A DNA stretch of 64,000 nt from Streptomyces venezuelae (lineage in GTDB: Bacteria > Actinomycetota > Actinomycetes > Streptomycetales > Streptomycetaceae), in contig NZ_CP029192.1 in the NCBI RefSeq assembly GCF_008642315.1, positions 8,804,001-8,868,000 of the forward strand. The letters are read 5' to 3'. Of the stretch, positions 1 to 15,856 are shown piece after piece. A program made the position numbers and the translations under genes. Positions within the stretch are counted from its first letter, which is position 1, and every line of letters begins with the position of its first letter. The notes beneath the pieces are model-generated. The model worked only from the letters and a program-made list of their open reading frames with translations, did not search any database and was not told where the DNA came from.

Positions 1-2
1 CC

Positions 3-218
3 GACTTCTTCGTACTGCCGTTGGATCCCACAGCCCTGCGACTGCCGACCGTGCGCCCGAGATCCTTGACTCCCCGGCCCGCCGTCATGCCCCGCCGGAC
101 CCCATCCGGGGCCGCCGCCGACCTCTCGGCGGTACGCGATCGCGCGCTGGCCACCCTCCTTCCCACTCTGCTGTCCGCGCCCAGGCGCCCCGATCACGAC
201 CACAGGACATCGTCATGA
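3..218 (+). CDS. C-terminal end of an unidentified protein (partial)
   Basis: The frame is open from the left edge and closes with a TGA that overlaps the ATG of the GrpE-like gene (ATGA). That is the coupling expected if this is the last part of an upstream operon gene. The visible 71 residues are rich in Pro, Arg and Ala and show no motif I recognise. It may equally be non-coding leader with a fortuitous open frame. The overlap is the only argument for reality. Confidence 0.3.
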   Translation, partial: DFFVLPLDPTALRLPTVRPRSLTPRPAVMPRRTPSGAAADLSAVRDRALATLLPTLLSAPRRPDHDHRTSS

Positions 219-817
219 GTAGCCAGTCTGCAGGCCGAAAGAACAATCCGGGCGCGGCCGGAGCGGCGAAGAAGCCCACAGGGCGTACGCGCCGTAAGGA
301 AAAGCGTGAGTTCGTTGAAGAGATGAAGCTACGCACCCTCCGGCCAGAAGAACTGCTCCATCCGGCCCAGCTCTTGGCCCGATTCACGGAACGGGCCGAA
401 GCGCTGCTTGCACAACTTCCACAGGAGTCCCGGCCTGCGCCCGCAGCGGTCAGCACGGCGCTACGGCAGGGCGTGCTCGACGCATTCCGGACGCGGGATG
501 AACACATCGCGCGCCTGGTTGAAACCGACCTCCTCGCGAGCACGCCCGAGCGCGGGGCGAAAGCCATCCGCCGGGCGGTCCGGTCCTCGCTCGTCGACAT
601 GGGGGTCCGTGTGGTTGAGGAGGCTGACGAGCACGAACTTTTCGTCGTGGTCGAAGGCGAGGGCCGAGGCTTCGAGCTAGTTCGGCCGGCCTACGTGGAC
701 CAGGCGACCGGCAAGCTGCTGCTGGCCGGGCAGCTGCGCCGTATCCCGACGCCGAGCGACCTGTCGACGCAGGAGCAGGCCGAAGAGGCGGATGTGCCAG
801 GAGGCGGTGCCAAGTGA
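215..817 (+). CDS. GrpE-like nucleotide exchange factor, partner of the downstream Hsp70
   Basis: This 200-residue protein has a Lys/Arg-rich head (about 1-33), a helical middle (35-110) and a compact C-terminal segment (about 128-175) reading FELVRPAYVDQATGKLLLAG. That segment resembles the GrpE beta domain, where a Gly-rich turn is followed by 'LRPA.V'. The assignment is strengthened because the next gene is an Hsp70 and starts inside this gene's stop codon (GTGA at 814-817). GrpE proteins release ADP from Hsp70. The sequence is divergent, so it could be another kind of cofactor. The start ATG at 215 overlaps the upstream TGA and has only a weak AGGA upstream, consistent with translational coupling. 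Confidence 0.5.
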   Translation: MSSQSAGRKNNPGAAGAAKKPTGRTRRKEKREFVEEMKLRTLRPEELLHPAQLLARFTERAEALLAQLPQESRPAPAAVSTALRQGVLDAFRTRDEHIARLVETDLLASTPERGAKAIRRAVRSSLVDMGVRVVEEADEHELFVVVEGEGRGFELVRPAYVDQATGKLLLAGQLRRIPTPSDLSTQEQAEEADVPGGGAK

Positions 818-2865
818 CCGCGACAGGAATCGATTTCGGAACGACCAACTCGGTCGTGGCCCAGTGGCAGGGGGACGACGCCGAGGTCCTGCCACTCGAC
901 GCCCACCACATCGACGCCGACTGGCGCCACCCGGGGTTTGAGCAGCTCTTCCCCTCGGTCGTGGGGCTCAGCTCGCTGAGGCGTGGCCCTCTGTTCGGGT
1001 GGGAGGCGAAGCTCCGCTCGGAGGAAGCGGCGGAAGCCTGCAAGCGGCTCCTCAAGAGCGACGAGTACGTGACCGTCCAGGGCAGGCGCTTCGCGGCGAC
1101 CACCGTCGCGGCGGGTGTCTTCACCGCCATGCGCGATGGTGCCCAGCACAACCTCACCGATATTGATCGTGCCGTCATCACCGTGCCCGCCAACGCTACG
1201 GGAGCCGCCCGCTACCGCACCAGGGCTGCGGCGCGGTTCGCCGGCATCGAGGTTCAGGCTCTACTCAACGAACCCACCGCCGCTGCCATCTCGTACGTCC
1301 ACGACTTCCGTGAGGATTCGCAGATCTTGGTCTTCGATTGGGGCGGCGGAACTATAGACGTCACCGTGCTGGACTACGCGGACGGGTTCTTCGAGGAGCG
1401 CGCATCACGCGGAGTTTCAGAGCTCGGCGGCCTGGAAATAGATCGGCGGCTGCGCGATCTGATCCTCGAACGGGCACCCGCACGCAGGGCGTGGACTCCG
1501 GCGCAGGAAAGGCAGTTCCGGCTTGACGTGGAACGGAACAAGATCCTTCTCTCTTCCCAGACGAGCGTGACAGTGATCACCCCGGACGGGATCGGCGTCG
1601 AGATCTACCAGGGCGAGCTGGAGGAGGCGATTGGCGACCTGGTCGACCGCGCACTCGCGCCGGTGGAACAGTGCCTGAGAGACCTGCACATGGCGCCACT
1701 CGACGTGGACGAGATCCTCATGATCGGCGGTACGAGCCAGATCCCCAGTGTGCGGGCCGCAGTGGCCGAGGCACTGCAGACAGAGCCCGTGCCCACTGAG
1801 CTGTGTGATCCGATGACGGCGGTGGCGCGCGGTGCGTCCATCGCGGCGGCGGTGCTCGCTGGCGAGACCGAGGGAGTCATTCAGGTGGCCACCAGTCACG
1901 CGCTCGGCACCATGGTCAAGGACTCCTCGGGACGGAAGCGGTTCAGCCAGATCATCCCGAGGAACTCGCCGCTGCCCTGGAAGGAACGCAAGAGCTACAC
2001 ACCGCACAAGGACCACGCGCGGAAGCTGTCAGTGGAGATCTGGGAGGGGGACCCGGACAAGGAGCTCGCCCACAGGGACAACGTGCAGCTCACCGAGCTC
2101 ACCCTCACGTACCCCACTGCGCGGGTCCGCGACGAATCCCGCTTCAACCTGGAGTACACGTACGACTCCAACGGTCTGCTCCATGTCAAGGCCACCCTGG
2201 AGCACACCGGGGACGTGGTGGTCGACCAGGAGGTCGAGAGCTTCGGGTCAGGTGGCCCCACGCCCGAGGTCCGCGCAGAGCTGGACCGGCTGATGAAGGC
2301 CAATTCGGGCCCCGCCTTTCTGGGGACGGCTCCTTCGGCTAACGGCGCTCGCCCCGTGCCCGTGCCTCCGAAGGCGCGGCCAATGACGGTCGACGGAAGC
2401 CCTCACGCCTTGGTGGTGGACGGTTCCAACCTTGCCTGGATCGGTCGTTCTCCGGTTCGCCCGGGTGTCTACGAGGATGGCGATCATCCGAGTTTCAGGC
2501 AGCTTCAGGACGCACGGGCCGCCTTGGCGAAGAAGTACCCCGCGGCCGAGATCCACGTCGTGGTCGACGCCAGCTTCAGGCACAAGGTGGCTGAGGTAGA
2601 GCGGAAAGCAGTAGAGGCTGCGCTCAGCAAGGGCGACATCATCCAGCCGCCGGCCGGTACTGAAGGCAAGGGGGATGCCCTCGTGGCGGCCATTGCAGAC
2701 GACTCCGGGGCGATGGTTGTGACGAACGACAACTTCGCGGAACTGCAAAGTCGCTACTCGTGGCTTCGGGAGAAGGGACGCGTTCTGGGGGCGACCCGGT
2801 CCAAGGGGGGCTGGTACTTCACCGACCGAATCTGCGTGGCGCCGCGCGGAGCGTACCGCGGCTGA
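814..2865 (+). CDS. Hsp70-family ATPase fused to a NYN/Zc3h12a-type ribonuclease domain
   Basis: This 683-residue protein starts at a GTG overlapping the previous stop. Residues 5-15 carry the Hsp70 phosphate-1 loop (GIDFGTTNSVV). A second phosphate loop (FDWGGGTIDVTVLDY) lies near 173-187 and the adenosine motif (MIGGTSQIPS) near 302. A shortened beta-rich substrate-binding region follows to about 500, then a Pro/Ala linker. From about 528 a PIN-like fold begins: VVDGSN with Asp536, VVVDASF with Asp585, GKGDALV with Asp621 and TNDNF with Asp639, the acidic set of Zc3h12a-type (NYN superfamily) RNases. DnaK normally ends in a helical lid; here an RNase replaces it. The fusion suggests that chaperone ATPase or client binding controls RNA cleavage. 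Substrate and trigger are unknown. A strong hairpin follows the stop. Confidence 0.85.
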   Translation: MTATGIDFGTTNSVVAQWQGDDAEVLPLDAHHIDADWRHPGFEQLFPSVVGLSSLRRGPLFGWEAKLRSEEAAEACKRLLKSDEYVTVQGRRFAATTVAAGVFTAMRDGAQHNLTDIDRAVITVPANATGAARYRTRAAARFAGIEVQALLNEPTAAAISYVHDFREDSQILVFDWGGGTIDVTVLDYADGFFEERASRGVSELGGLEIDRRLRDLILERAPARRAWTPAQERQFRLDVERNKILLSSQTSVTVITPDGIGVEIYQGELEEAIGDLVDRALAPVEQCLRDLHMAPLDVDEILMIGGTSQIPSVRAAVAEALQTEPVPTELCDPMTAVARGASIAAAVLAGETEGVIQVATSHALGTMVKDSSGRKRFSQIIPRNSPLPWKERKSYTPHKDHARKLSVEIWEGDPDKELAHRDNVQLTELTLTYPTARVRDESRFNLEYTYDSNGLLHVKATLEHTGDVVVDQEVESFGSGGPTPEVRAELDRLMKANSGPAFLGTAPSANGARPVPVPPKARPMTVDGSPHALVVDGSNLAWIGRSPVRPGVYEDGDHPSFRQLQDARAALAKKYPAAEIHVVVDASFRHKVAEVERKAVEAALSKGDIIQPPAGTEGKGDALVAAIADDSGAMVVTNDNFAELQSRYSWLREKGRVLGATRSKGGWYFTDRICVAPRGAYRG

Positions 2866-2880
2866 TCTGTGTTCCTGGCG

Positions 2881-2927
2881 GCTCCACCCGGTACTCGCGC
2901 ACGCGTTGCGCGAGTACCGGGTGGAGC
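2881..2927 (+). terminator. Perfect 21-bp-stem hairpin terminator
   Basis: A 21-bp perfect inverted repeat with a 5-base CGCGT loop begins 16 bases after the Hsp70-NYN stop. There is no U-tract, which is normal for Streptomyces hairpin terminators. It probably ends the GrpE/Hsp70 operon. Confidence 0.85.
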
Positions 2928-3449
2928 GTCGATCTGGTGTGCTATCAGTACTTCGGCGACGACCCTTTTGGGCGCATGCTCCGTGCATGGCCGCGCGCAG
3001 GACCACCGTGCCGGGGCGGCACCAACCGCGGTATCCCACCGGCAGCATCGCTGTGTGAGATGGACACATGGCTGAGCTCGGGGTGCCGGCTCGCCGAGGG
3101 GCGGGGCAGTGGTTGTGAGACCGTCGGAGGGTGAGGAGTTGCGAGCGTGAATCGAGGTGTGCGCCAGTGCGGACGTTGTGGTCCTGGGGTGCTTTAGGGC
3201 TGGGATGCCCAGGCGACTGTGTGGCCTCGGCGTGAACGCCGGCGCGTGAGCCGTGACCGGATTCCGGCTTTGGGTGCCGCGCCGATGGAAGAACGGTCGG
3301 CAGGTTGAACGATCCGATATGGGTTCGTATCTGTTCGGAAATGGCTACTGGAGCGGAGACGCCTTTGCAACACGTTTGCCGTCAGCTGAAGGTGAAGACA
3401 TCGGGCTCCTCTCGCGCATCGAGCGGGGCGCCAGAAGCTAGGAAGCAGA
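2928..3449. other. Non-coding stretch
   Basis: No supported gene. The only structure noticed is one copy (3377-3394) of an 18-bp sequence repeated directly at 3731-3748, on the far side of the IS701 relic. Confidence 0.4.
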
Positions 3450-3710
3450 TCTGGCGCGACGAAGTGAACCGTGTCCGGGCGAAATTGGCGTTTCGTCGAT
3501 GACGTGTTCGCCACCGTGCCGCGCACAGACCGGCGGGCCAAGAGCGACTGCTACCTGCGAGGTTTGATGCTGGACGGACGCCGCAAGTCCATCCAGGCCA
3601 TGGCGTCGCGCTGCCGGAGGGCAACGAGCAGAACCTGCAGCAGTTCGTGAACCAGTCCACCTGGGACCCGCTGCCGGTGCGCCGATGCATCGCTGAGCGG
3701 ATGCCACATC
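3450..3710 (+). pseudogene. IS701-family transposase, N-terminal fragment
   Basis: Translation in two frames gives FVDDVFATVPRTDRRAKS, then CYLRGLMLDGRRKSIQAM, then NLQQFVNQSTWDPLPVRRCI. This is the conserved N-terminal run of Streptomyces IS701-family DDE transposases. A frameshift near 3610 and the loss of everything after 'AERM' show that it is dead. A C-terminal fragment of the same family lies at about 17880-18356, but the two need not come from one copy. Confidence 0.7.
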
Positions 3711-3719
3711 TTGTTTCCA

Positions 3720-4434
3720 CGGGAGTCTCCTGCCGTCAGCTGAAGGTGCCCGAAATCCATACCGCACTGGCCAATACCATCCAGCCGTGGAGGATCGAAA
3801 TCCTCGACGGCATCCTTTGGGACGACGGCAAACCCCTGGACGAGTGGGCCAAGAAACTCAAAGAAGTTTGGACCAACCTGGCCACCCAGTCCCACTTCCA
3901 GCAGGACCCTGCACAGGCTCGTGCCGCGCACCTGGCCTCCCGCGCGGTGCGCGCCATCCTCCTGTATGGCATCGGCTCCTTCGCCCAACGCCCCCGCATG
4001 GTCACCGGCACCACCCCCCCGCACCCTGGAACGCGAGGTGCCCGCAGACGACGAAATCGTCGACTTCGACGCCGAGCAGATCACCTGGCAGAAGCCCACC
4101 GGATTTGCCCACGGCCCCAGCGCCCACCCCGAATGGGCTGCTGCCATCTGGTCCGGGGCACGCGCCGCCCTGCTCAGCCAGCGCCACCGCGAACATGGCA
4201 CCTACGCCTGAGCGCTGCACACACCACCGGGCAGTGCTGTCGCCTTCCGCACGGATGCCCTCTATCTGACCGGCGCCCACGACTGGCCTTACCAGCACCA
4301 GCCCAGCGACTACCTTCTGAAATGGCACTTCACCGGCCCTCTGCCCGCACCCACCAGCGAAGAACAGCTCCTGGCCTGCGCGATGCCAGACGCGCCGCCC
4401 TCACCCAGACCACCACGGGGACCTGATACCAGCG
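3720..4434 (+). pseudogene. Unidentified protein, broken by at least two frameshifts
   Basis: Coding-quality sequence runs from about 3750 (TIQPWRIEILDGILWDDGKP) to a C-run at 4010-4020, where the frame moves to one reading LEREVPADDEIVDFDAEQI. It shifts again near 4212 to one reading AFRTDALYLTGAHDWPYQHQ, and ends in an Ala/Arg-rich tail near 4426. Spliced together, the pieces would make a protein of about 230 residues. I do not recognise the family. The 'AFRTDALYLT' stretch recalls replication-type proteins, but that is only an impression. A second broken gene follows in the same orientation. Confidence 0.4.
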
Positions 4435-4469
4435 AGCAACCGCCGCTGCCCCGGCGCCCGCCCGGCGCC

Positions 4470-5130
4470 GGAGCTCAACGAGGCCGCCCAACTCGCCGAC
4501 CAGCTCCGGGAGGTCGGCTACACCAAACGTGACATCGCTCGCATCATCAACCGCGATGCCTCCCTGGTCTCCCAGTTCTACACAAAACACAAGGGAGCCG
4601 CCTTCGTCCATGCCCTGCCCGCCGCCACCACCGGCGGCATCACCGAGGTGTCCGAACTCGCGGCCCTGGCCCCCCCACGTCAACCCGCTGCACCACCGCC
4701 TCCGGCGCCCGCGCCCGGGTACGTGCCAAAGCCGTCCTGATCACCCCACCGGCACCGGCCGCGTCGCCGTCCAGGCCATCGCCTCCGGCTCCACCCGGCT
4801 GCCCTCCTGATCGCAGAAGCCGCCCGACAGAACCTGAAGTTGGCCTTCACCGTCCGCCTGGCCAAGATCGGCTACGTGCACCCCTCCGGCAGTCGCACCG
4901 ACTCACCCGGCATCCGCCGCGACGTCATCCAACGGACCGACCACACCGAGGAACGCTCTTACGGATCGGCCACCACCGGCGGCTTCGACGCCACCGACTT
5001 CGCCCGGCAGGTGGATGCATCGGGCGGCGATGTCACTGCAGCCGTACACCAGTGGCTCGTGGAGAGCGGCCGCATCCACTCGGGCGCCCACATCACCAAC
5101 CTTGAAGTGCGCACCTGGGGCTCACGCTGA
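4470..5130 (+). pseudogene. Unidentified HTH protein, frameshifted
   Basis: A reading frame with no start codon (4470-4740) encodes an apparent helix-turn-helix, GYTKRDIARIINRDASLVSQ, followed by TTGGITEVSELAALA. After a frame change within the C-run near 4670, homology-like sequence resumes as 4840-5130 (FTVRLAKIGYVHPSGSRTDS ... ITNLEVRTWGSR). The two parts look like one original protein of about 210 residues. A DNA-binding role is inferred from the HTH only. The arrangement of a larger gene followed by a small HTH protein could be a replication or telomere pair from a linear replicon, but I cannot support that from sequence. Confidence 0.35.
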
Positions 5131-5502
5131 CCTCCGTCGGTGCGTCGGGTCCTGCTACTGCCCCGCATCGTGGGCTTCATGGGATGGCAGTACGCGGGGT
5201 CCCTGCGCCACGTCCAGAATTGGCCAACTCGCCGCGCGAGCTGTAGGAGTGCTGACTGGCATGTGTGGGGTGCCGCACGACGGCCCGCTCCTCGTCCTCA
5301 CCGGCGTGGCCTGGTGAGACGTTCGCATTTGGAACGCTGTTGTCCTGTTCGCAGCGTGATGCCTGGGTTGCGCGGCTTGGTTGGGCAGGATCTCAGCCAC
5401 ACCGTGGACCCGGCCCCGTGCCAGGGAAACCCCTCGTGAAAACATCTGCACCGTAGGTAGCGTGTACAGCTCAGAATCCCCATACCTCCTAGGAGTTCAG
5501 AC
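5131..5502. other. Intergenic stretch before the RHS operon
   Basis: No supported gene. Its 3' end contains the AGGAG ribosome-binding site (5491-5495) of the lipoprotein gene, embedded in a small CTCCTAGGAG palindrome. The operon promoter must lie in this interval, but no convincing -35/-10 pair was found. Confidence 0.4.
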
Positions 5503-6147
5503 GTGACTCGCCGTTTCCTGTCCGTTGCGGTCGCCATCACCGCAAGTACCGCGCTGCTGCTGACCGGCTGCAGCTCGGGCGGCAGTGACGACGACGCGCC
5601 CGACAAGATCAAAGGCTCCGGGGCAGACACGGACAGTTCAGCGTCTGCCGGCCCATCGGCGAAGCCGGGCGGAGCCATGCGACCGGACATCACGCTGCCC
5701 AAGTCCGTCCAAGTCACCTTCGAGGGCTGGACGAACAGCGACCCGAAGCTGCAGGCCATCCTGGACGACGGCAAGGAGCGCCTCCGTGCCTCCTACGCCG
5801 CGATCATCAACAAAGACCCGCAGGACGATGCCTTCACCTTCTACAGCGAGAGCGACGCGCTGCGCACCGGCACCGAGTGGGTCAAGGGGTTCACGGACAA
5901 GAACCTCGTCCTGATCGGTAAGGGCCGGGTCTTCCAGCCGCAGCCCCGCATCAGCCCAGACGGTTCCGGCACGCTTTTCTACTGCGTGGACGAGGGCAAG
6001 GGATCCACCAAGGACACCAAGACCGGCAAGGTCACCGCCACCCCCGCGGATGACGCCCTCGTGCTCTACCGCACCAAGCTGCGCAAGACGAAGGAAGGCG
6101 TCTGGAAGACCACGATGGTCCAGACGGAGCGAGGAGCCTGCAAGTGA
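5503..6147 (+). CDS. Lipoprotein of the RHS operon
   Basis: This 214-residue protein starts at GTG 5503, with AGGAG seven bases upstream. It has a classic lipoprotein signal peptide: MTRRFL, a hydrophobic core, and the lipobox LLTG-Cys at about residue 23. A Ser/Asp-rich linker (25-55) is followed by a globular domain of about 150 residues that I do not recognise; it contains FTFYSESDALRTGTEWVKGF. The gene overlaps the next by GTGA and lies upstream of the WXG-like and RHS genes. It is probably a membrane-anchored accessory of the RHS toxin's export or assembly, inferred from context only. Confidence 0.8.
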   Translation: MTRRFLSVAVAITASTALLLTGCSSGGSDDDAPDKIKGSGADTDSSASAGPSAKPGGAMRPDITLPKSVQVTFEGWTNSDPKLQAILDDGKERLRASYAAIINKDPQDDAFTFYSESDALRTGTEWVKGFTDKNLVLIGKGRVFQPQPRISPDGSGTLFYCVDEGKGSTKDTKTGKVTATPADDALVLYRTKLRKTKEGVWKTTMVQTERGACK

Positions 6148-7220
6148 GGAAGCCGCTCCCTCGCGCAGTGACGCTCACCGCAGCGTCCCTGGTGGTCACG
6201 CTGCTGACCCCATCGGCCGCCTTCGCCTGGGGAACGGACCCTGGTGAGGCTGCCAAACCGCCCGCCGAGGACAGCGCCAAGGGCACGGCTAGCGGACCGG
6301 AATTGGGGGCCGAGGTCACCCGCACCCGCATCGTCGTCACACAGCCCGGCGGTGGCACGACCAAGCCGTCCGCCGGCAGCCTGGCCGCTGTCGACCCGAA
6401 CTGGAAACCGCCGGCCTGCTGGTACGAACCACTCGCCACACCACAGCAGCTCAAGGACGCGACGGAGAAGATGAACAAGGGCGACCTGTTCTCCGTGAAC
6501 TTCGGTCGCCGCTGGGGCAAGGACCTCCTTGTCGACGCGTTCGACAAGGGCGATGCGACCTTCACAGACACCCCGACCAAGAACTACAACGTCGGCAAGA
6601 AGGGCATGTTCTGGCGTGCGGTTGCCCGCCAGGACCGCGCGAACGACCCCGAAAGCCTGGACTGCTCAAAGAACTTGTTCTGGCAGAAGGCCGGCACCGT
6701 CCCCGACGATCCGAATGCCCCCACTCCTGAAGTACTCGCGGCCTACGCCTACGACAAGATCCGGGTCCCGGACACCAAAGTGGAGCTCAAGCCGCAGGGC
6801 AAGTCGACGGTCAACCTGCCCACCTGGGTGTGGCTGGACAAGGCCGTCTTCAAAGACGTCACGGTACGCGCCTCGCTGCCCCACACCGGTCTGTACGCGG
6901 TGACGACCGCGAAACCGGTGGCCCTGCACCTGGACCCGGGCACTGGCGACGCGCAGACCTTCCCTGCCTCCGGCGACTGCCCGGTCAACGAGGACGGCTC
7001 CATCGGCACTCCCTACACCAAGGGCGCCTCCCAGGAGAACCCGCCGTGCGGCCTCGCCTACCTCCGCGCCACGAGCGGGGAGCCCTACCAGCTCAAGGCT
7101 TCCGTCACCTGGGAGATCTCCTGGGAGGGCACAGGCAAAGCCAAGGGTGACCTGCCCAACGGCACCTTCGAGACCACTCAGGACATCAAAGTCCAGGAAA
7201 TCCAGTCCATCAACCGCTGA
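6144..7220 (+). CDS. Secreted protein of the RHS operon
   Basis: This 358-residue protein starts at the GTG that overlaps the lipoprotein stop. A Sec signal peptide is clear (RKPLPRAVTLTAASLVVTLL, ending TPSAAFA at about residue 28). The mature part has no transmembrane segment and includes NPPCGLAYLRATSGEPYQLK and a C-terminal region typical of secreted beta-rich proteins. I do not recognise the family. Tight coupling to a lipoprotein and placement ahead of a WXG-like gene suggest an extracytoplasmic partner for the toxin, for example in passage through the wall. The spacing to the next gene (64 bases) is larger than elsewhere in the operon. Confidence 0.8.
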   Translation: MRKPLPRAVTLTAASLVVTLLTPSAAFAWGTDPGEAAKPPAEDSAKGTASGPELGAEVTRTRIVVTQPGGGTTKPSAGSLAAVDPNWKPPACWYEPLATPQQLKDATEKMNKGDLFSVNFGRRWGKDLLVDAFDKGDATFTDTPTKNYNVGKKGMFWRAVARQDRANDPESLDCSKNLFWQKAGTVPDDPNAPTPEVLAAYAYDKIRVPDTKVELKPQGKSTVNLPTWVWLDKAVFKDVTVRASLPHTGLYAVTTAKPVALHLDPGTGDAQTFPASGDCPVNEDGSIGTPYTKGASQENPPCGLAYLRATSGEPYQLKASVTWEISWEGTGKAKGDLPNGTFETTQDIKVQEIQSINR

Positions 7221-7284
7221 CCACGGCTGTCGGCCAGCCACCACAGCACACGCACAACCATCTCAACCACGGGGGCGGACACGT

Positions 7285-7596
7285 ATGTCGGACCTGAAGA
7301 AGGACGCGGAAGCCCTGCACAAGGCGGCTTCCGCGCTGGGCAAGGCGGAGGACCACACCCGCAAGCCGCTGCACGACTTCAAGGCCGCTTCGCACGATCT
7401 GTCCGCATTCGGGGTGCTGGGCTCTCTGATGAGTGCCAAGGACGACATCCAGGACGGCATGGACACCATCGCCAATCTCACCAAGCACCTGCACAAGGAG
7501 TGGGAGGCCGAGGCGAAGTTCATGGACGATGTCTCCGACGCCTTCGACCTATTGGACGTCCTGCTGACGGCTGCGGCTCGCGCCAAGAAGGGCTGA
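7285..7596 (+). CDS. WXG100-like small helical protein
   Basis: Start ATG 7285 was chosen because GGGGGCGGA precedes it; longer in-frame starts run back into the previous gene. The 103 residues are almost entirely helical (MSDLKKDAEALHKAASALGK ...) with a break near GVLGSLMSAKDD, matching the helix-turn-helix hairpin of small WXG100/ESX-type secretion partners, although the W-X-G triad itself is not evident. It lies seven bases before an RHS protein that carries a WEG motif. It is best read as a co-secreted or chaperone partner of the RHS toxin. Confidence 0.6.
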   Translation: MSDLKKDAEALHKAASALGKAEDHTRKPLHDFKAASHDLSAFGVLGSLMSAKDDIQDGMDTIANLTKHLHKEWEAEAKFMDDVSDAFDLLDVLLTAAARAKKG

Positions 7597-7603
7597 GCCG
7601 TAC

Positions 7604-10600
7604 ATGGGTTTCGACATCATCCCCGGCGACGCCGAGTTCGAAATTGACGCCGGGGACCTCAACCCGCTGCACTGGGTCAACAAGGCCAACCACGCCTTCG
7701 GCAGCACCCTCGCCAGCAATCTTGAGTTCCTCGGCATCACCGACCCCGCCGTCGACCCGGACGGCATCCGGGAGATAGCCAAGCAGTGGCGGGCCCTGGC
7801 CAAGGGCCTGGACGCTGCCGCCCGCGACGCCGAGACGGCCCTCAAGGATTTGGGATGGGAGGGCAAGGCCGCAAAGGCCCTCCACAAGCGGGCCAAGACC
7901 GCCCGCACGCAGGCCACCGACATGGCCGACTCCCTGCGTACGGGCGCCAAGGCACTGGACGACTTCGCCGACGAGGCACACGACCTGCTGACCGAGATCG
8001 GCGTGCTTCTCGCGGAGATCGCCGAGTTCGAGATCGCTAGCCTCGCACTTTCGGTGCTGACCGGCGGCCTGTCCGTGATCGCTGGGAACCTTGCGGCCGG
8101 CGCGCGGGCCGTGAAGGTCGTGGCGTTGATCGGCCGGATCGAGAAGTCCGGGAGCCGTATGGCCCGGGTCATCCGCACCGTTGTGGAGGCGATCCGTGGC
8201 CTGGAGCGGGCGCTGAAGGCCCTCGGTGAGATTAAGACGATCGCCAAGGCAGGCAAGATGGCGGGCGAGGGCATGAAGTTCGCCGCCTTCGACGCCGCCC
8301 TGCGCGACCCTGGCGTATTCAAGGACCCGGGCAAGCTGGCGGAGACGCTGGCCCTGGGGGCCGCTTTCGGCGTCGGCGCGGGAGGTCTGGGCAAGCTCCT
8401 CGGCAAGGGTCTGGGTAAACTCAAACCCAGCGAACTCGCGAAGCTGGGCCAGAAGTTGGGGGTGGACGGCTCCGGCCTGTCCAGACTCAAGCTACGCCCC
8501 TCGGAGTGGGAGAAACTACCCGCCTCCATCCGGTCCATGTTCAAGAAGTGCGACCGCGACCCGATCGATGTCGCTACCGGCGACATGCTGCTGCCTCAGG
8601 CCGACGTCGAATTGCCCGGCACCCTTTCCCTGGTGCTGGAGCGGACCCACCTGTCGTCGTACCGGTGGGGTGGCTGGTTCGGCCCCACCTGGGCCTCCAC
8701 CCTCGACCAGCGCCTCCAAGCTGATGACGACTGCATCGTCTACGCGGCAGCCGACGGCGCACGGCTGATTTATCCGAACCCTGCCCCTGATACCGCCGAC
8801 CCCGTCTATCCAGAGCTTGGACCGCGAATACCCCTGGCCTGGGACAGCGAAGTCGACGGCGCACTGCGCATCACCGACCCGGACACGGGGCTGGCCTACA
8901 CCTTCCACAGCCCACGGCCCACCGACGACAGCGATGCTGTCGACTTGCCCTTGCAGTCCATCCAGGACCGCAACGGCCAGCGCATCACCCTTCACTACGC
9001 GGACGACGGTACGCCCGTGGAAGTCGCCCACTCCGGCGGCTACCGCATCGCGCTCGACCGCCACCGCGACCTGCCCCGCATCTGCGCCCTGCGCCTGCTG
9101 GACCCCGAGCGGCCGGACAGCCTCGGCACGGTCCTTGTATCCTACGGCTACAGCGAGGACGGGCACCTCACCGAGGTCACCAACTCCTCCGGCCTGCCGC
9201 TTCGCTTTACCTACGATTCCGAGGGCCGTATCACCTCGTGGACCGACCGCAACGACACCGCGTACCACTACACCTACGACGAGCATGGCCGAGCCGTTCA
9301 CACTGAGGGCAGTGCCGACTTTCTCTCCGGCAAACTCACCTACGACGACGCCACCCGTACCACCATTGTCACCAACTCTCTCGGGCACACCACTCGTTAT
9401 GAGCACAATGAGGCTCTGCGGCTGGTCAGGGAGACGGATCCGCTGGGCCACACCACCGTCCAGGAGTGGGATGCCGAGCAACGGCTGATCGCCGTTACCG
9501 ATGCCCTTGGGCACACCACGCGCTACGCCCACGATGAGCAGGGCCGGGTCGTATCCGTGTGTCTTCCCGACGGCCGTGAAGCCGGCGCGGAGTACAACGA
9601 GCTCGGCTTGCCGACCACTGTCATCGAGCCGGACGGCTCCCAGTGGAGTCAGGAATACGACGAGCGGGGTAACCGCACTCGCCTGACCGACCCGGCAGGC
9701 GCCATCACCCGCTACACCCTGACCCCTGCCGGTCATCTCGCAGCCATCACTGATGCTTTGGGCAATACCGTCCGGGTGCGCTGCAACCCGGCGGGACTGC
9801 CCACCGAGGTCACCGATCCGCTCGGGGCCCGCACTGCCTATGAACGGGACCGGTTCGGACGCCCCGTAACCCTCACAGACCCCCTGGGGGAGGTGACCCG
9901 CCTGGACTGGACCGTGGAAGGCAGACTGTCGCGCCTCACCACCCCAGACGGTGCCAGCGAATCATGGGAGTACGACGGCGAGGGCAACTGCATCACACAC
10001 ACGGACGCGGTGCGGGGAAATTCCAACTTCGAGTACACCCACTTCGACCTCCTCGCCGCACGCACCGGCCCAGACGGAGTCCGCCACACCTTCACCCACG
10101 ACACCGAACTCCGCCTGATCCAGGTCACGAACCCGCACGGCGCGACCTGGAGCTATGCCTATGATCCTGCGGGCCGTCTCGTCTCCGAGACGGACTTCGA
10201 CGACCGCACACTCACCTACACCCACGACGCCGCGGGGCGGCTCACTTCCCGCACTACGGCAACCGGCCAGACGGTCCGCTACGAGCTCGACTCCATGGGC
10301 CGGACCTTGGCCAAGAACGCCGCTGGCACCGTGACCGCCTATTCCTACGATGCAGCAGGCCGCCTGACGCGGGCCTCCAGCCCCGAGGCAGTACTTGCCC
10401 TCCGCCACGACGCGGTCGGACGTCTGGTATCCGAGACGGTCAACGACCGCACCACCACCTACACCTACGACCTTCTAGGCCGCCCCGCATCGCGTACCAC
10501 CCCCACGGGCGCGACCAGCACCTACACCTACGACGCAAGCGGCAACCGCACCCAACTCAACACCTGCGGCCGCACCCTGACCTTCGAACACGACCAGACA

Positions 10601-12112
10601 GGCCGCGAGCTGGCCCGCCGCATCGGCAGCAGTCTCACCCTGACCAGTGCCTTCGACCTCCTGGGACGGTTGAGCAGCCAGACAGTCACCGATGCCCAAC
10701 GCACCTCAATCCAAAAGAGGGCCTACACCTACCGCGCTGACGGCGCTCTCATCGCACTCGATGACCAGCTCAACGGCTCCCGTCGGTTCGAGCTGGACAC
10801 CACTGGCCACGTCACCGCGGTCCAAGCCGCCAACTGGACCGAGAGCTACGCCTACGACGAGACGGGCAATCAGGCACACGCCTCATGGCCGGACACCCAC
10901 CCGGGCCATGAGGCCACCGGTTCGCGTGCCTACAGCGGTACACGCCTCACCCGCGCAGGCCGAGTCCGCTATGAACACGATGCGGCCGGACGCGTCACTC
11001 TGCGTCAACGGCACCGCCTGTCCCGCAAACCCGACACCTGGCGCTACACCTGGGACGCAGAAGACCGCTTGGCCCAGGTCGTCCTCCCCGACGGCACGCT
11101 GTGGCGCTACTCCTACGACCCCCTCGGACGCCGCACTGCAAAACAACATCTGACGGCCGGCGGCGAAACCATCCTGGAGCAGACCAACTTCACGTGGGAC
11201 GGGCCGTCCCTGTGTGAACAGACCACCCGTTCTCACGTCCACCCCAACCCGGTCACCCTCACATGGGATCACGACGGCCTGAGCCCGATCACTCAGTCCG
11301 AACGGGTCTCTGTCGCCGATGCCCCCCAAGACGAGATCGACTCACGCTTCTTCGCCATCGTCAGTGACCTCGTCGGCGCACCCTCCGAACTCATCGACGA
11401 AGAGGGAGCCGTCGCTTGGCGTGCCCGTAGCACCCTGTGGGGAAAGACCGCATGGGCTACGGGAAGCAGCGCCTACACGCCTCTGCGCTTCCCCGGCCAG
11501 TATTACGACGCGGAGACCGGCCTCCATTACAACTACTTTCGCTACTACGACCCCGAAACCGCCCGCTACCTCACCACTGACCCGCTTGGACTAGAGCCCG
11601 CACCAAACCCATCCTCCTATGTGGACAACCCGCACATAGCTGGAGACCCACTGGGGCTTTCTCCGTGCATGATCGGAGCCAGAAAGAGTTCCACGCAGCT
11701 CCGGAACACTCCGGGGGCGGTAACGGGAGGCAGCAGACTTCCGGATGTCAACGGCCGGTGGCTCAGAGGATCGGAAGGAAATGCCGGACGCATCCCGGGA
11801 CAAGTAGCAAGAGGACTGCAAGGGCGACAGTTCAAGACCTTCCACGACTTCCGATCGGCATTCTGGGAAGAAGTGTCCAAACATCCTGATATCGCCAAGC
11901 AATTCTCCAAGTCTGGGCAAACGGCAATGGCAGGCGGTAATTCCCCCTTCGTTCTCGCAGCCCAGGCGGAACCTGGCCAGTATCGATACGTCCTACACCA
12001 CCTGCAACCCATCCAGCGTGGCGGCGGCGTCTACGATCTTGATAACCTTGTCGTCATAACCCCGCGCTACCACAAGGAAATACTCGATCGCGGCTACCAT
12101 TTCGGTAAGTGA
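7604..12112 (+). CDS. RHS polymorphic toxin with colicin E/pyocin-type HNH DNase tip
   Basis: This 1502-residue protein starts at ATG 7604. The N-terminal helical region (about 50-135) holds a WEG triad at 85-87, typical of WXG/T7SS-type trafficking domains, followed by a hydrophobic segment (145-170). A DUF6531-like entry (CDRDPIDVATGDMLL, near 316) leads into many RHS/YD repeats (about 500-1290; units such as YAYDPAGRLVSETD). The core ends with YYDAETGLHYNYFRYYDPET and the DPLGL cleavage-type motif near 1350. The tip matches colicin E2/E9 DNases: KTFHDFRSAFWEEVSKHPDI, then His1465-His1466 and His1490 around GGGVYDLDNL, the HNH metal site. It should cut DNA of competitors. The immunity gene overlaps the stop region. 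Confidence 0.92.
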   Translation: MGFDIIPGDAEFEIDAGDLNPLHWVNKANHAFGSTLASNLEFLGITDPAVDPDGIREIAKQWRALAKGLDAAARDAETALKDLGWEGKAAKALHKRAKTARTQATDMADSLRTGAKALDDFADEAHDLLTEIGVLLAEIAEFEIASLALSVLTGGLSVIAGNLAAGARAVKVVALIGRIEKSGSRMARVIRTVVEAIRGLERALKALGEIKTIAKAGKMAGEGMKFAAFDAALRDPGVFKDPGKLAETLALGAAFGVGAGGLGKLLGKGLGKLKPSELAKLGQKLGVDGSGLSRLKLRPSEWEKLPASIRSMFKKCDRDPIDVATGDMLLPQADVELPGTLSLVLERTHLSSYRWGGWFGPTWASTLDQRLQADDDCIVYAAADGARLIYPNPAPDTADPVYPELGPRIPLAWDSEVDGALRITDPDTGLAYTFHSPRPTDDSDAVDLPLQSIQDRNGQRITLHYADDGTPVEVAHSGGYRIALDRHRDLPRICALRLLDPERPDSLGTVLVSYGYSEDGHLTEVTNSSGLPLRFTYDSEGRITSWTDRNDTAYHYTYDEHGRAVHTEGSADFLSGKLTYDDATRTTIVTNSLGHTTRYEHNEALRLVRETDPLGHTTVQEWDAEQRLIAVTDALGHTTRYAHDEQGRVVSVCLPDGREAGAEYNELGLPTTVIEPDGSQWSQEYDERGNRTRLTDPAGAITRYTLTPAGHLAAITDALGNTVRVRCNPAGLPTEVTDPLGARTAYERDRFGRPVTLTDPLGEVTRLDWTVEGRLSRLTTPDGASESWEYDGEGNCITHTDAVRGNSNFEYTHFDLLAARTGPDGVRHTFTHDTELRLIQVTNPHGATWSYAYDPAGRLVSETDFDDRTLTYTHDAAGRLTSRTTATGQTVRYELDSMGRTLAKNAAGTVTAYSYDAAGRLTRASSPEAVLALRHDAVGRLVSETVNDRTTTYTYDLLGRPASRTTPTGATSTYTYDASGNRTQLNTCGRTLTFEHDQTGRELARRIGSSLTLTSAFDLLGRLSSQTVTDAQRTSIQKRAYTYRADGALIALDDQLNGSRRFELDTTGHVTAVQAANWTESYAYDETGNQAHASWPDTHPGHEATGSRAYSGTRLTRAGRVRYEHDAAGRVTLRQRHRLSRKPDTWRYTWDAEDRLAQVVLPDGTLWRYSYDPLGRRTAKQHLTAGGETILEQTNFTWDGPSLCEQTTRSHVHPNPVTLTWDHDGLSPITQSERVSVADAPQDEIDSRFFAIVSDLVGAPSELIDEEGAVAWRARSTLWGKTAWATGSSAYTPLRFPGQYYDAETGLHYNYFRYYDPETARYLTTDPLGLEPAPNPSSYVDNPHIAGDPLGLSPCMIGARKSSTQLRNTPGAVTGGSRLPDVNGRWLRGSEGNAGRIPGQVARGLQGRQFKTFHDFRSAFWEEVSKHPDIAKQFSKSGQTAMAGGNSPFVLAAQAEPGQYRYVLHHLQPIQRGGGVYDLDNLVVITPRYHKEILDRGYHFGK

Positions 12113-12138
12113 GAAATGCACCCGAGAGGATATACTCA

Positions 12139-12351
12139 ATGCCCCCCAAGACTCGCACAGAACTCGTCGAGATTGTGCAGAAGCTCATCGACGCAACTCT
12201 GCCGGAAACGGAAGGGGACGCACTGCTGGAAGAGTTGATGGCGAGTGTTCCGCACCCGCGCGTATCTGACTTGATCTTCTACCAGGAACCCCCACTGACC
12301 GCAGACCAAGTAGTCGACCAAGCACTGGCGTACCGCCCCATCGAACTGTAA
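12139..12351 (+). CDS. Colicin E/pyocin-type (Im9-like) immunity protein
   Basis: Start ATG 12139 was chosen for the GAGAGGA eight bases upstream; a GTG at 12109 would overlap the RHS stop. The product has 70 residues. It is acidic, helical and carries the hallmark of the Im2/Im7/Im9 family: HP at 39-40, SD at 43-44 and IFY at 46-48. In Im9 this segment, including two tyrosines, binds the DNase. It is 15 or so residues shorter than enterobacterial Im proteins. It directly follows the matching toxin tip, so it almost certainly protects the producer from the RHS DNase. Confidence 0.88.
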   Translation: MPPKTRTELVEIVQKLIDATLPETEGDALLEELMASVPHPRVSDLIFYQEPPLTADQVVDQALAYRPIEL

Positions 12352-12582
12352 TGCGCGTAACAGGGGGACTCACCTCTTCTATTCCGCTTCGCTACGTTCT
12401 CCGGAGATACGGACGGGTACGGGCTCGGTGTGCTCCTACCCGCATTGCAGGCACATGCCCCGATAGATGGGCGGCGCAGCGTTGGCGTAGAAGGCGGCCG
12501 TGAAGGGCTGCCCCCGACCGGACATGCCGGTGTCCGGCAAGCCGCTGTCATGGTGACCGGGTTCGGGTCGTCCACGGGTCGT

Positions 12583-13448
12583 TTAGTCCTCTCCAATGAT
12601 CATCCAGTGCACGATGGTTGGGGTGGTGTTGGTGCGGTGCACCCAGATGGTCAGCCCGCTCGATAAAACGGCTGTGACGCCGACGCCCACGACGGTCTTG
12701 CCCGGCACGGAGGCGACGGGGGTGACGAACGCGCGGAAGTTCTTCCCCCTTGATGTTCCCGCCGCTCAAGGTGACGGATGTGGGCTTGTTGGCCACCGGA
12801 GTAATGGTCGCCGTTCCAATCGAGACGTTGTCCGACCGCAGCACGCCGGCCGCCCGGATCGATGCCGCGGACATGGTCACGGGCCCCTGCCCCAGTGACA
12901 GGCTGCCACCATCCTGCCCAGACCCCAGCTGCGCGGAGTTCTTCCCGAGGAACAGGCGCCCGCCAAAGGGCTTGGCTCCCGTTCACAGTGATGCGCTCCG
13001 CGGTGAAGAAGTCGTTGCCGAAGAACGTCCGCCACCGGTAGACGTCCGCGTCGGTGAACGTCCCCGAATTGATCCCGATGTTCGCGTCCGAAGGGCTGGA
13101 GCCACTGACGTGGATGTAGGCCTGGTTCGAACCGTCGACGGACGCCCAATAGATGTACGGATAGACGTCGTTGGGCTCCATGCCGATCGCCGACCCGTTC
13201 GCGCCGATCGCCCGCAGCCAGGCCGCATTCAGGACGATGCGCGGCCCCTCGGCGGCGGTCTGCACCGTGGCACCGGTGATGATCTTGCCGTTGATCGCGT
13301 CCGCGTCCAGCAGGTCCGCAGTGATCGCCCTAGCAGCGACATGATCGCGCCGCACAACCCCTTGCCCCAGGTCCTCGGACGTGGCCCGGCGCGATGTGGC
13401 CTCCACCGCCTCGGACGGCGGCCCGGGAGTGCCGGAGGTGTTCACCAT
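12583..13448 (-). pseudogene. Phage minor tail/structural protein, C-terminal relic
   Basis: On the minus strand the sequence AITADLLDADAINGKIITGA, then a region with AIGMEPNDVYPYIYWASVDG, TFTDADVYRWRTFFGN and SVTLSGGNIKG resembles the C-terminal part of actinophage tail proteins that begin 'ITADLL...INGK'. The frame breaks near 12960 and 12750; in the correct final frame it ends TPTIVHWMIIGED before a TAA at 12583. No other phage genes surround it, so this is a single decayed prophage gene. Confidence 0.6.
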
Positions 13449-13504
13449 GACCTGCTGGCGGCGCCGGCCTCGTTCCAGGCGGCCAGGCGCCGCCAGCAGG
13501 TCAT
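13447..13504. repeat. 19-bp perfect inverted repeat
   Basis: Arms 13447-13465 and 13486-13504 (left arm begins ATGACCTGCTGG) are separated by 20 bases. The repeat sits exactly at the 5' edge of the phage-tail relic and could be a terminator or a recombination scar. Confidence 0.7.
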
Positions 13505-13627
13505 GCCCGAGCCGAAACCCAGCTGGGTGCGGTTCCTTTCGAGGGACAGTTGATCTGAAGTCGTCCTGATCAGTGTGTGCTGGTACTGGCTGCGAGGGCG
13601 TGTCCATTCGGCGTAGCGTCATGGTTC

Positions 13628-14083
13628 ATGGTGTCTTTGTTCGCGGTGTTGGGTCCGCCGTTGATCACGATCTTCCTCTTCGCCATGGGCGCGATCCCGT
13701 ATGCCTTGTGGGTGTCCAGGAGGAAGCCCTCCTGGCTGGCCCGCTGGGCTGTGATCGGCAGCGCGGCAGCGATCGCCGCCTACGGGGCTGGGGCCGTTTA
13801 CGGGCTCGCCTTCACGAACCCACTCGACGTGTGCGCGGACAAGACCGGTGGTGGCGTGTACATGGACGCGGGACGGGACTACACGCTGACATCAGTCGAC
13901 GTGAAGAGTTTCCCGCCGTCTATCAGTTGTCACTGGAGCAGTGGCCGCAGCACTGAAGTGGTGTGGTTCTGGACGTCCCCTCTGCTCTATGCGGGGCTGG
14001 CCTGCGCCGTTGTCTGCTCCGTCGGGCTCTTTGTCAACCGCAGCAAGGGCCGAAACGCACGAGCGCCCTACGAGACGGTCTGA
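13628..14083 (+). CDS. Small integral membrane protein
   Basis: A 151-residue protein if translation starts at ATG 13628; an in-frame start at 13577 would add 17 residues without a hydrophobic lead. Three membrane spans are visible: LFAVLGPPLITIFLFAMGAI (about 4-24), WAVIGSAAAIAAYGAGAVYG (37-57) and SPLLYAGLACAVVCSVGLFV (118-138). A loop of about 60 residues with two cysteines lies between spans 2 and 3. No family is recognised. It resembles in size and plan the protein at 17149-17556, but not in sequence. Confidence 0.65.
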   Translation: MVSLFAVLGPPLITIFLFAMGAIPYALWVSRRKPSWLARWAVIGSAAAIAAYGAGAVYGLAFTNPLDVCADKTGGGVYMDAGRDYTLTSVDVKSFPPSISCHWSSGRSTEVVWFWTSPLLYAGLACAVVCSVGLFVNRSKGRNARAPYETV

Positions 14084-14157
14084 GCTGGGAAGACGCTGAT
14101 TGGCGTGTGGTCGGCACCGTCGTACTTCTACCGTGGCGGGATGGAGGTGGGGCGCCC

Positions 14158-14946
14158 ATGGTGTCTTTGCCGGAAGAGCTTCAGGCTCGAGAGGCCGCAG
14201 CTCGGCGGCGTGTGGAGGAACTCCAAGCCGAGACAGCCGAGTTGGCCATCCGGCTGGAGGAGGCTCGGGAGGATCTTTCGCGGCTCGAGATCACGCGGGA
14301 GACCGTCGCGCAGGTGCTGGCGGAGTTGTCGGCCGCAGAGACCGAACCGCACGATGCGACGGGGAGGGTGCCGGAGGCGAACGAATCGGCGACTCCCCAT
14401 GGCGTCGGGGTGATGATGGTGCCGCCGTGGCGGGAGGGCCTGGTCGTGGCGGTATTGCCGGACGTGTACCGGGACATCGTGGAGATCATCGCTGACGCGC
14501 CCGGACCGTTGCAGGCCAAGCAGGTCGTGCCGCGGACCGGTCTGCCGACGACGACCGGGAAGATCGAGGGGACCCGGGGAAAGCTGAAGCGTCTGGTGGA
14601 GCGGGGCTGGCTGGACGAAGACGCGCCGGGACAGTTCACCCTCGCTCACCAAGGCCCGGGCGGGACCGTGTCAACTCCCAGTGACCAAGAGGCTCGTCTC
14701 CGAAGATTCGTAGGTACCAACCAGAACGAATCACTCCCGAAGAAGAGCCCTCGATGGAACCGTACGACGCCTTACCTGAGCTTGATCCGTACTCCGCCTC
14801 CCGTGATGCCTTCGAACGTGCTTCCCGTCGCCCGCCGCGACGCCGTCACCACCTGCGACCGCTACCTCACCGGCCACCTCGACCAACTCCACTACGACAC
14901 CGCCCTCGCGGCCGGCTGGCCGAGTGATCACATGCTCGGCCGATGA
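14158..14946 (+). CDS. Coiled-coil plus winged-helix protein, C-terminus running into an IS relic
   Basis: Start ATG 14158. Residues 5-60 form an uninterrupted coiled coil (LQAREAAARRRVEELQAETA ...). After a variable linker, residues 85-165 (VVAVLPDVYRDIVEIIADAP ... KLKRLVERGWLDEDAPGQFT) read as a winged helix. This two-part layout is common in Streptomyces near transposases. The last 90 or so residues are translated from transposase DNA (RYLTGHLDQLHYDTALAAGW), so the natural C-terminus has been replaced. A DNA-binding accessory role is inferred, not shown. Confidence 0.6.
   Translation: MVSLPEELQAREAAARRRVEELQAETAELAIRLEEAREDLSRLEITRETVAQVLAELSAAETEPHDATGRVPEANESATPHGVGVMMVPPWREGLVVAVLPDVYRDIVEIIADAPGPLQAKQVVPRTGLPTTTGKIEGTRGKLKRLVERGWLDEDAPGQFTLAHQGPGGTVSTPSDQEARLRRFVGTNQNESLPKKSPRWNRTTPYLSLIRTPPPVMPSNVLPVARRDAVTTCDRYLTGHLDQLHYDTALAAGWPSDHMLGR
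14754..14930 (+). pseudogene. Internally deleted ISKra4-like transposase
   Basis: ATG 14754 opens MEPYDALPELDPYSASRDAF, the start typical of Streptomyces ISKra4-type transposases. Some 25 codons later another frame carries DRYLTGHLDQLHYDTALAAG, which normally lies near the C-terminus. Most of the gene has therefore been deleted, joining head to tail. Confidence 0.6.
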
Positions 14947-15166
14947 CACGCCCCGGGCGCTGGCCCCGGGCCCCTCCGTACGTGGGCGAGGAGGTCGGCG
15001 CCCCGCTCGGGGTCGCCTACGACGCGTCCGTAGGTCTCTCACATGCCCTGGGGGATGCGGAACTTGGTGCTGTAGGTGTGGTCCCTGCCGTGTCCGAGAC
15101 GGCGGCGCACAACCGAATCCTGCGTCCCGTGCTGAGCACGTGAAGGGCCGACGGTAGCGTGCTGGT

Positions 15167-15811
15167 ATGGATGGACATGCGGCACGCGAGCACAGCATTG
15201 AGTGGCGTCAGATAGATGACGCCTGGCAGCGTATTGAGTCCTGGCTTGAACGGAACGCTCCGGCGACATTCGCGAGCCTGTTGCCTGGCGCTTCCGAGGC
15301 GGAGCTCGACGAACTGCAGGAGTCTTTGGGCGTGCGTCTGCCCGTTGGGCTGAGGGCGTTGTGGAGTCGGCGGGCAGGTGTGGGTCCGGAGACGACGCCT
15401 TGGTTCATGCCCGAGGAGTGTGTGCTGATGTCGTTTTCCGTCGTCCGCCGCGTCTACCAGCGACAGATGTTTCTGCGTCAGCAGGATCTAGAGGACCAGC
15501 AGAGGACGGGTAGCACGGAAGAGATCACGGTGTGGCGTCCCTCCTGGGTCCCCTTTGCCGCGATGGATGCAGATGCTCTGACCGGTCTGTGCGTGGACGC
15601 TGAGACCGGCAGGATCTGGTACTGGTGTGAGTATGCGGAGCGCAGGGTCCAGTTCGAGTCGCTGACGGACTACTTGGAGGAGATGGCTGACGCCCTGGAG
15701 AATCCGGAGCTCGCAAAAGAGGCGCGGGTCGGCCTGATGAACGGGTTCTTGGTGTGGGGTGTGCCGTTGAACGAGGCCGAGCGAGCGGCATGGGAGCCGT
15801 TGGGGAGTTGA
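15167..15811 (+). CDS. SMI1/KNR4-family protein
   Basis: This 214-residue protein starts at ATG 15167. The order of features fits the SMI1/KNR4 (SUKH) fold: WQRIESWLERNAPATFASLL, then LLPGASEAELDELQESLGVR LP in which the early acidic helix is followed by 'LP..LRALW..R.G', then WVPFAAMDADALTGLCVDAE for the central strands, and VQFESLTDYLEEMADALENP at the end. SUKH proteins are very often immunity proteins against contact-dependent or RHS toxins. No toxin gene lies immediately next to it, only NucA/NucB-like nuclease debris downstream, so it may be an orphan immunity gene. Confidence 0.8.
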   Translation: MDGHAAREHSIEWRQIDDAWQRIESWLERNAPATFASLLPGASEAELDELQESLGVRLPVGLRALWSRRAGVGPETTPWFMPEECVLMSFSVVRRVYQRQMFLRQQDLEDQQRTGSTEEITVWRPSWVPFAAMDADALTGLCVDAETGRIWYWCEYAERRVQFESLTDYLEEMADALENPELAKEARVGLMNGFLVWGVPLNEAERAAWEPLGS

Positions 15812-15856
15812 CGGTGTGGGGCGAGCGTGCGTACTCACCCCACACGTCACGAGGAT

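Follow-up and report, generated by a model that had tools for sequence, protein, structure and literature searches.

What does an Hsp70 chaperone do with a ribonuclease (RNase) in the place of its helical lid? This question is raised by the left end of a 64,000-nucleotide stretch of Streptomyces venezuelae DNA (GCF_008642315.1, contig NZ_CP029192.1, positions 8,804,001 to 8,868,000; G000:C1:8804001-8868000 in our numbering), which we refer to as the window and which belongs to a single contig of 8.94 Mb. Three overlapping genes, B, C and D, are found there in this order on the forward strand; they encode a TPR-like and J-like protein, a GrpE-like protein, and a fusion of an Hsp70 with an NYN domain of the Zc3h12a type. 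In an Hsp70 chaperone, the client is held beneath a lid whose movement depends on the nucleotide state; delivery of clients and the triggering of ATP hydrolysis are the task of J-proteins, and GrpE exchanges the nucleotide. We propose, with a probability of roughly one half, that B, C and D together encode an Hsp70 machine whose role is to control an RNase in the defence against phages or other invaders.

Both halves of the D protein are as they had been described in an earlier note on this DNA, which claimed a complete Hsp70 ATPase carrying a Zc3h12a-type RNase domain instead of the lid. The match of D to the Pfam profile HSP70 (PF00012; 227.3 bits, cut-off 20.6) spans the nucleotide-binding domain (NBD) and the beta part of the substrate-binding domain (SBD), and when its motifs were compared with those of the DnaK of this genome, the ATPase motifs (GIDFGTTN, the Lys, NEPTAA, and DxGGGT) proved to be retained. 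The match stops at position 490 of the 599 positions of the profile and is followed by a linker and the NYN domain; the helical lid has no counterpart. We rejected the possibility that D is a plain DnaK paralogue, since it scored only 229.5 bits against the NCBIfam equivalog cut-off of 648 for NF001413, and 225.2 bits against that of 822.55 for TIGR02350. The 35-residue linker evolves fast, with ratios of non-synonymous to synonymous substitution rates (dN/dS) of 0.25-1.32 in 16 of 17 pairs (one was not computable), a property that fits a tethered effector controlled through proximity or release better than a rigid mimic of the lid.

When residues 523-683 of D were searched alone, they matched RNase_Zc3h12a (PF11977, gathering cut-off 23) with 24.4 bits; within full-length D the score was 20.2 bits and hence below the cut-off, while the full-length homologues from loci L009, L055, L052, and L185 reached 23.1, 26.9, 31.4, and 34.2 bits, respectively. 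In a profile search of the PDB, members of the ZC3H12/KHNYN group made up the ten best of 12 matches, in keeping with the PIN-like fold that the earlier note had expected. All four acidic residues, which we take from the family alignment and from general knowledge of this family to be the catalytic ones, are present in the D protein of the window and in 33 of 39 further full-length sequences (34 of 40). Their predicted conservation among homologues is thus seen in most of the family, but six members have lost two or three of them, and a Druantia-linked group lacks the domain. The NYN domain is under purifying selection as judged by dN/dS and is, from its sequence, predicted to be an active RNase. 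Its identification as a Csx1-like nuclease was dropped, the corresponding PADLOC match having been found at E=0.059 only.

The coding regions of the three genes overlap at ATGA (B/C) and GTGA (C/D). Gene B comprises 585 codons (G000:C1:8802461-8804218, equivalent to positions 16461-18218 of our locus L008), the bulk of which lies upstream of the window. The earlier note had described a two-gene unit of a GrpE-like factor and the Hsp70-NYN protein; this pair recurs in other genomes, but the unit consists of three genes, with the TPR-like/J-like gene B at its upstream end. The coupling of a GrpE-like gene to D is borne out by the overlap and by a weak in-register hhalign alignment of C with the C-terminal half of GrpE (PF01025; probability 55%, P=1.2e-4; shuffled controls at most 0.2%), which argues that C is likely related to GrpE, as a divergent exchange factor. 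A search of the genome itself with PF01025 detected two other genes and not C. The C-terminal region of B could be aligned in register with the J-domain profile (PF00226) at a probability of 71% for 49 sequences and of 88.8% for 13 of the relatives described below (the 12 Druantia-type loci and L185), with shuffled controls not exceeding 6.9% in either case. A VIA-align structure comparison returned TPR matches for B, and the top three chains in a Foldseek search with the B model were those of P58IPK, a TPR and J co-chaperone (best E=0.02); the superposition of the two is poor, with template-modelling (TM) values of 0.18-0.25, and P58IPK is absent among the 50 VIA-align matches listed. Those B and C proteins that were scanned had no significant match in Pfam, NCBIfam, or PADLOC (HTH_WhiA at E=0.075 in one relative), and PDB profile searches with B and C gave unconvincing matches to maltose-binding protein fusions (best E=0.45) and to designed Pizza repeats (E=0.006, none of the individual stretches passing).

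A search of further genomes for the same genes and their neighbours, as the earlier note had suggested, yielded 52 additional loci, 40 of the NYN type and 12 of a Druantia type; not included in this number are the window and the near-duplicates L187, L197, L245, L246, and L248, and the partial or broken copies L020, L062, L065, L066, L190, L191, L241, and L242 were not counted as full-length. Gene B is present in 51 of the 52 loci, and C and D overlap by 4 nucleotides in 50; the sole locus devoid of both C and B (L195) is a truncated copy. The distribution is patchy. We found matches to the NYN domain in 24 of 295 Streptomyces genomes, several of them weak or partial, and in 33 of 343 genomes of the order, weak and partial ones included; one fusion stems from another family (G295, locus L185) and its NYN domain is 56% identical. 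In a sample of the phylum, NYN matches occurred in 28 of 396 genomes, 27 of which possess standalone NYN proteins and not Hsp70 fusions (as judged by eye), and B was found in only two of these genomes, both from Streptomyces. Many of the standalone proteins (L155-L181) have a long tail rich in Lys and Ala, and the one that was scanned showed a weak, sub-cut-off S1-like match; they are probably RNA-processing enzymes. D was not matched in plasmids at E<=1e-50, nor in viral contigs in a scan by six short patterns that detects close relatives only, and the NYN domain was not matched at E<=1e-5 in plasmids or in a phage collection that was searched with this domain alone.

A number of relatives are located next to genes for known anti-virus systems. 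Loci L048 and L050 have a gene for a DrmMI-like (DISARM-like)/type IIG-like methylase that overlaps B, and in L050 genes for LeoBC- and LeoA-like GTPases (dynamins) directly follow D. In L063, a member with a degenerate NYN domain, the next two genes after D encode PglW (1546.8 bits) and PglX (1682.7 bits), while two Type I methylase genes lie upstream of B in L060. Three of the six members with a degenerate NYN domain (L067, L193, and L194) lie near a pair of N6-methylase genes. In 12 distinct loci (L009-L017, L019, L021, and L188), B is preceded by a gene (1173-1345 codons) for a relative of superfamily 1 (SF1) motors with a long C-terminal extension; the one scanned, that of L009, is HelR/HelD-like (231.4 bits against an NCBIfam cut-off of 1100). 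The presence of relatives inside or beside known anti-virus systems suggests that the chaperone serves as a sensor of infection or as a switch. The link to phages raised by the earlier note is therefore supported indirectly, through the relatives, but not by a recognised defence gene beside the copy in the window.

A further group of relatives is without the RNase. When the 343 genomes of the order were searched with a profile of B, matches were obtained in 38, of which 14 are without an intact NYN-type module. Two of these (L241 and L242) are broken copies; the other 12 (L230-L240 and L243) are of the Druantia type. Here, the Hsp70 has 566-588 amino acids and ends about where the NYN domain would start, the NYN domain is absent, and DruE immediately precedes B in all 12 loci. 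The three DruE proteins that we scanned match the PADLOC model DruE4 with 2134-2172 bits; ahead of DruE we found DruF4 in all three loci scanned (with DruF2 models scoring nearly equally) and DruL4 in both loci scanned. The DruE-DruF-DruL genes next to these sister triads are those of Druantia type IV as this type is defined in the consulted portion of PMC8565338. Among 80 genomes, there are 10 full-length DruE4 matches (at least 1998 bits) in nine genomes, and five of the 10 are accompanied by the triad, a figure that joins the DruE4 scan with the B-profile search and assumes that the two samples of the order are identical. Three genes for which PADLOC has no models are thereby added to five of 10 DruE4 loci.

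In a tree of 54 sequences calculated from 495 NBD and SBD columns, one clade consists of 32 NYN-type sequences; its counterpart comprises L185, with an active-type NYN domain, and then the six members with a degenerate NYN domain together with the 12 NYN-less Druantia forms (ultrafast bootstrap values of 94, 95, 99, and 100). A short stretch, VNG, which aligns with the start of the NYN domain (VVDGS), has been kept in the three Druantia forms compared. It is likely that the fusion is ancestral, that catalysis was lost once, and that the NYN domain was lost thereafter; since the root is placed on a long outgroup branch, this order is likely rather than certain. The degenerate NYN domains are likewise under purifying selection, with dN/dS values of 0.11-0.18 in four pairs. 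One genome (G226:C1) contains both kinds of module, one with an active-type (L048) and one with a degenerate NYN domain (L067).

From these data a working scheme can be formulated. B, with its TPR-like and J-like parts, would probably bind an infection signal, either a protein or a complex, and hand it to D, whose full Hsp70 ATPase with its substrate cleft carries the NYN RNase on a flexible tether in the position of the lid. C would reset D through nucleotide exchange and set the rate of resetting. Once enough client is loaded on D, the RNase would be brought to RNA or released on it, and the ensuing stop of translation would amount to abortive infection; the copy in the window may serve the same role. 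Beside Pgl, restriction-modification, and Druantia genes the triad persists beyond its RNase, which suggests a reusable sensor or switch in the Hsp70 machine and an effector that can be exchanged. The NYN domain may have degenerated in the lineage with one member beside PglW/PglX and three near a Type I methylase pair, and disappeared behind DruE, because other effectors act there. In a wider and more tentative form, to which we give somewhat less credence, the Hsp70/J-like/GrpE-like machine could be a plug-in infection sensor that reads the state of proteins through its client load and its nucleotide cycle, and that licenses a coupled effector: ancestrally the RNase that replaces the lid, and the Druantia helicase or the Pgl/restriction machinery in derived forms in which the RNase has decayed. 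If true, bacterial immunity would own Hsp70 machines with private co-chaperones that respond to a folding signal by cleaving RNA or by activating systems of the Druantia or Pgl type. The triad would then offer a testable entry to the question of how Druantia and Pgl sense infection, and to that of whether an enzyme fused to an Hsp70 where the lid would be can come under the control of the Hsp70 cycle.

Several observations weigh against the proposal that the triad controls an RNase in defence. We recognised no defence gene beside the triad of the window itself (PADLOC was not run on all of its neighbours), and the neighbours of relatives that were scanned with PADLOC had been hand-picked for their defence-like look, so that they serve as examples and not as rates. 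The one systematic test does speak for a defence context: of 29 modules in 28 genomes, 11 have a gene for an N6-methyltransferase (N6-MTase) at a distance of no more than 20 kb, against an expectation of 0.47 (200,000 simulations, maximum 5). In this test 95 of 114 N6_Mtase matches were used, with 19 weaker than about E=4e-6 excluded, and three of the 29 modules (G029, G486, and G498) are truncated or partial. In seven of the 11 modules near an N6-MTase, the same two hits recur at a spacing of about 2.2 kb, and the association thus partly reflects one syntenic hotspot rather than independent events. In the clade of six (of 40) sequences in which two or three of the four acidic residues are lost, the NYN domain looks dead. 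Foldseek gave no match at E<=0.001 either with the structural model of the NYN domain or with the model of B; the confidence of both models is low to middling. C has no match to GrpE in Pfam at E<=1 (the sole match is MDMPI_N at E=0.48), and full-length B aligned with the J-domain profile at a probability of only 2.7%. The HPD motif, which J-proteins use for triggering the ATPase of Hsp70, is absent from the position of the loop between helices II and III in 49 of 49 B sequences (in an alignment judged by eye), and the single HPD among them (L196) sits elsewhere; B may consequently dock without stimulating ATP hydrolysis. Since the linker between Hsp70 and NYN is not conserved, a tight allosteric gating of the RNase is unlikely as well.

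The same data can be read in other ways. The triad might be a remodelling device by which large complexes of defence proteins are put together or recycled, such as those of DruE, PglX, and the DrmMI-like and HelR-like proteins, with the NYN domain as a secondary, RNA-handling or RNA-binding part and not a killer. The triad behind DruE without any NYN domain in 12 of 12 loci speaks for this explanation, as do the HelR/HelD-like motor before B, the DrmMI-like methylase in L048 and L050, and the state of the NYN domain in the two sister lineages, where it is either degenerate or absent and where the degenerate form is still under purifying selection. Several NYN-type loci (e.g., L051-L061, as judged by eye), however, share no partner beyond B and C and have a catalytically complete NYN domain, and with only five of the 10 DruE4 loci carrying it, the triad is presumably not essential to Druantia; we regard remodelling as an unlikely contender. 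Another reading is a role in stress or RNA quality control, where the Hsp70 would recognise misfolded nascent chains and the NYN domain degrade the mRNA on stalled ribosomes, with no link to phages. The logic of the domains would suit this role, the copy in the window has no recognised defence neighbour, the nearest NYN relatives found outside the order are the standalone proteins, one with a weak S1-like match of the kind found in RNA-processing enzymes, and a precedent idea is provided by sacsin, in which a J-domain and an RNase-like HEPN domain are combined (described in the consulted part of PMC3710099). Housekeeping quality control would not be expected to occur patchily in Streptomyces, or close to restriction-modification, Pgl, DISARM-like, and Druantia genes as is seen for relatives, and we consider this role improbable.

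Overlapping genes with a small partner directly before the RNase gene also call to mind a toxin-antitoxin-like unit, in which D would be an RNase toxin that is held inactive by B and/or C and released when the partner is lost. We judge this to be more improbable still: B and C resemble co-chaperones rather than antitoxins, a full Hsp70 ATPase is excessive for such a toxin, and within the limits of the searches made there is no plasmid, phage, or viral-contig copy. A chance fusion or an annotation artefact devoid of function is refuted for practical purposes by the 52 further loci with their conserved order, mostly conserved catalytic residues, and purifying selection.

The features of the locus in the window are compiled in the table. 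The terminator-like 21-bp hairpin downstream of D is probably the end of the B-C-D transcript.

Table. Position of the B-C-D genes, the domains and acidic residues of D, and the downstream hairpin in the window.
Feature	Coordinates	Strand	Remarks
Gene B, 3' end	1..218	+	TPR-like, all-helical; J-like domain mostly just upstream of window
Gene C	215..817	+	GrpE-like protein of 200 amino acids
Gene D	814..2865	+	GTG start; Hsp70-NYN fusion of 683 amino acids
Hsp70 nucleotide-binding domain of D	814..1908	+	Residues 1-365, boundary approximate; HSP70 profile E=3.8e-67
Beta substrate-binding domain of D, without helical lid	1909..2298	+	Residues 366-495, boundary approximate
Linker of D	2299..2403	+	Residues 496-530; fast-evolving (dN/dS)
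NYN (Zc3h12a-type, PIN-like) RNase domain of D (predicted)	2404..2808	+	Residues 531-665
Asp536 codon	2419..2421	+	VVDGSN motif; Asp in 40/40
Asp585 codon	2566..2568	+	VVDASF; Asp in 34/40
Asp621 codon	2674..2676	+	GKGDAL; Asp in 34/40
Asp639 codon	2728..2730	+	TNDNF; Asp in 35/40
Perfect 21-bp inverted repeat, 5-nt loop	2881..2927	+	15 nt past the stop of D; -50.7 kcal/mol, z=-7.7

Upstream of gene B, positions 14305-16195 of L008 contain an IS630-like transposase (a label given by inspection), spread over two frames that overlap, together with a fragment of NOV_C (DUF3883-like). The fragment has no similarity at E<=1e-5 to the HelR-like gene A of which it might have been a remnant and was treated as unrelated debris; since the transposase and this fragment are found beside B instead of DruE, the assignment of the window locus to Druantia was dropped. 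Elsewhere in this genome there is another dedicated chaperone cluster of mostly overlapping genes (L184, G000:C1:1966001-1985000, positions 2873-18498) for a 2197-amino-acid CHAT-domain protein, a 119-amino-acid protein, GrpE, an Hsp70, an Hsp70 with TPR, and two unknown proteins. Further along the window (7604-12112), a 1502-amino-acid RHS-repeat protein with a WXG100-like N-terminus and a colicin/pyocin-type DNase C-terminus represents a polymorphic toxin of bacterial competition.

How do B, C and D relate to systems already described? D shares profile and fold matches with the Zc3h12a/Regnase-type NYN RNases (PF11977) and KHNYN and belongs to the same active-site family; in eukaryotes, zinc finger, KH, or similar domains accompany the NYN domain. 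B has the same order of TPR and J-like parts as co-chaperones of the P58IPK/DNAJC3 type and differs from them in the missing HPD. In CoCoNuT systems, according to the part of PMC11090510 considered here, the proteins CnuD and CnuCD likewise combine an Hsp70-like NBD/SBD with a predicted RNA-directed defence beside RNase (HEPN) domains; CnuD has McrB/McrC partners, degenerate Walker A-like motifs, and a HEPN RNase, whereas D has kept its ATPase motifs and contains the NYN domain in the same chain. A precedent for a chaperone cofactor that is needed for phage sensing is bNACHT25, which uses the DnaJ of the host and a NACHT protein (consulted sections of PMC12169576) in contrast to the dedicated Hsp70-RNase found here. 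Druantia type IV (DruE-DruF-DruL; PADLOC, Payne et al., 2021, PMC8565338) has the same B-C-Hsp70 triad after DruE in 12 loci, yet its Hsp70 lacks the NYN domain, and B of the window locus is not flanked by DruE. The main text of that paper, as far as it was available to us, does not mention Hsp70, DnaK, or chaperones, and PADLOC gave no significant match for C and D of the window, for the B and C relatives scanned (L009, and B of L048), or for the one Druantia Hsp70 scanned.

A close parallel is offered by the GAP1-N2 GTPase-centred conflict systems, mainly of actinobacteria and firmicutes, which possess a dedicated Hsp70, GrpE, and DnaJ or TPR partner and in which the chaperones are viewed as threshold switches (Kaur et al., 2020, PMC7159879, in the passages considered). 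The resulting operon resembles B-C-D; GAP1-N2 systems, however, are centred on GTPases and FNIII-repeat proteins, while the B-C-D core is without a GTPase (the Leo-like genes of L050 follow it), and a scan made without the GAP1 profile gave no GTPase or FNIII Pfam match among the window-genome genes scanned. NYN domains are not mentioned in the available main text of PMC7159879. The earlier note knew of no described system with an Hsp70-NYN fusion, and we found no description of it, or of Hsp70 triads in Druantia or Pgl loci, in the portion of the open-licence PubMed Central (PMC) literature covered. Chaperone-thresholded conflict systems as such are already known, and the Hsp70-NYN fusion with its partners B and C would add a further form to them.

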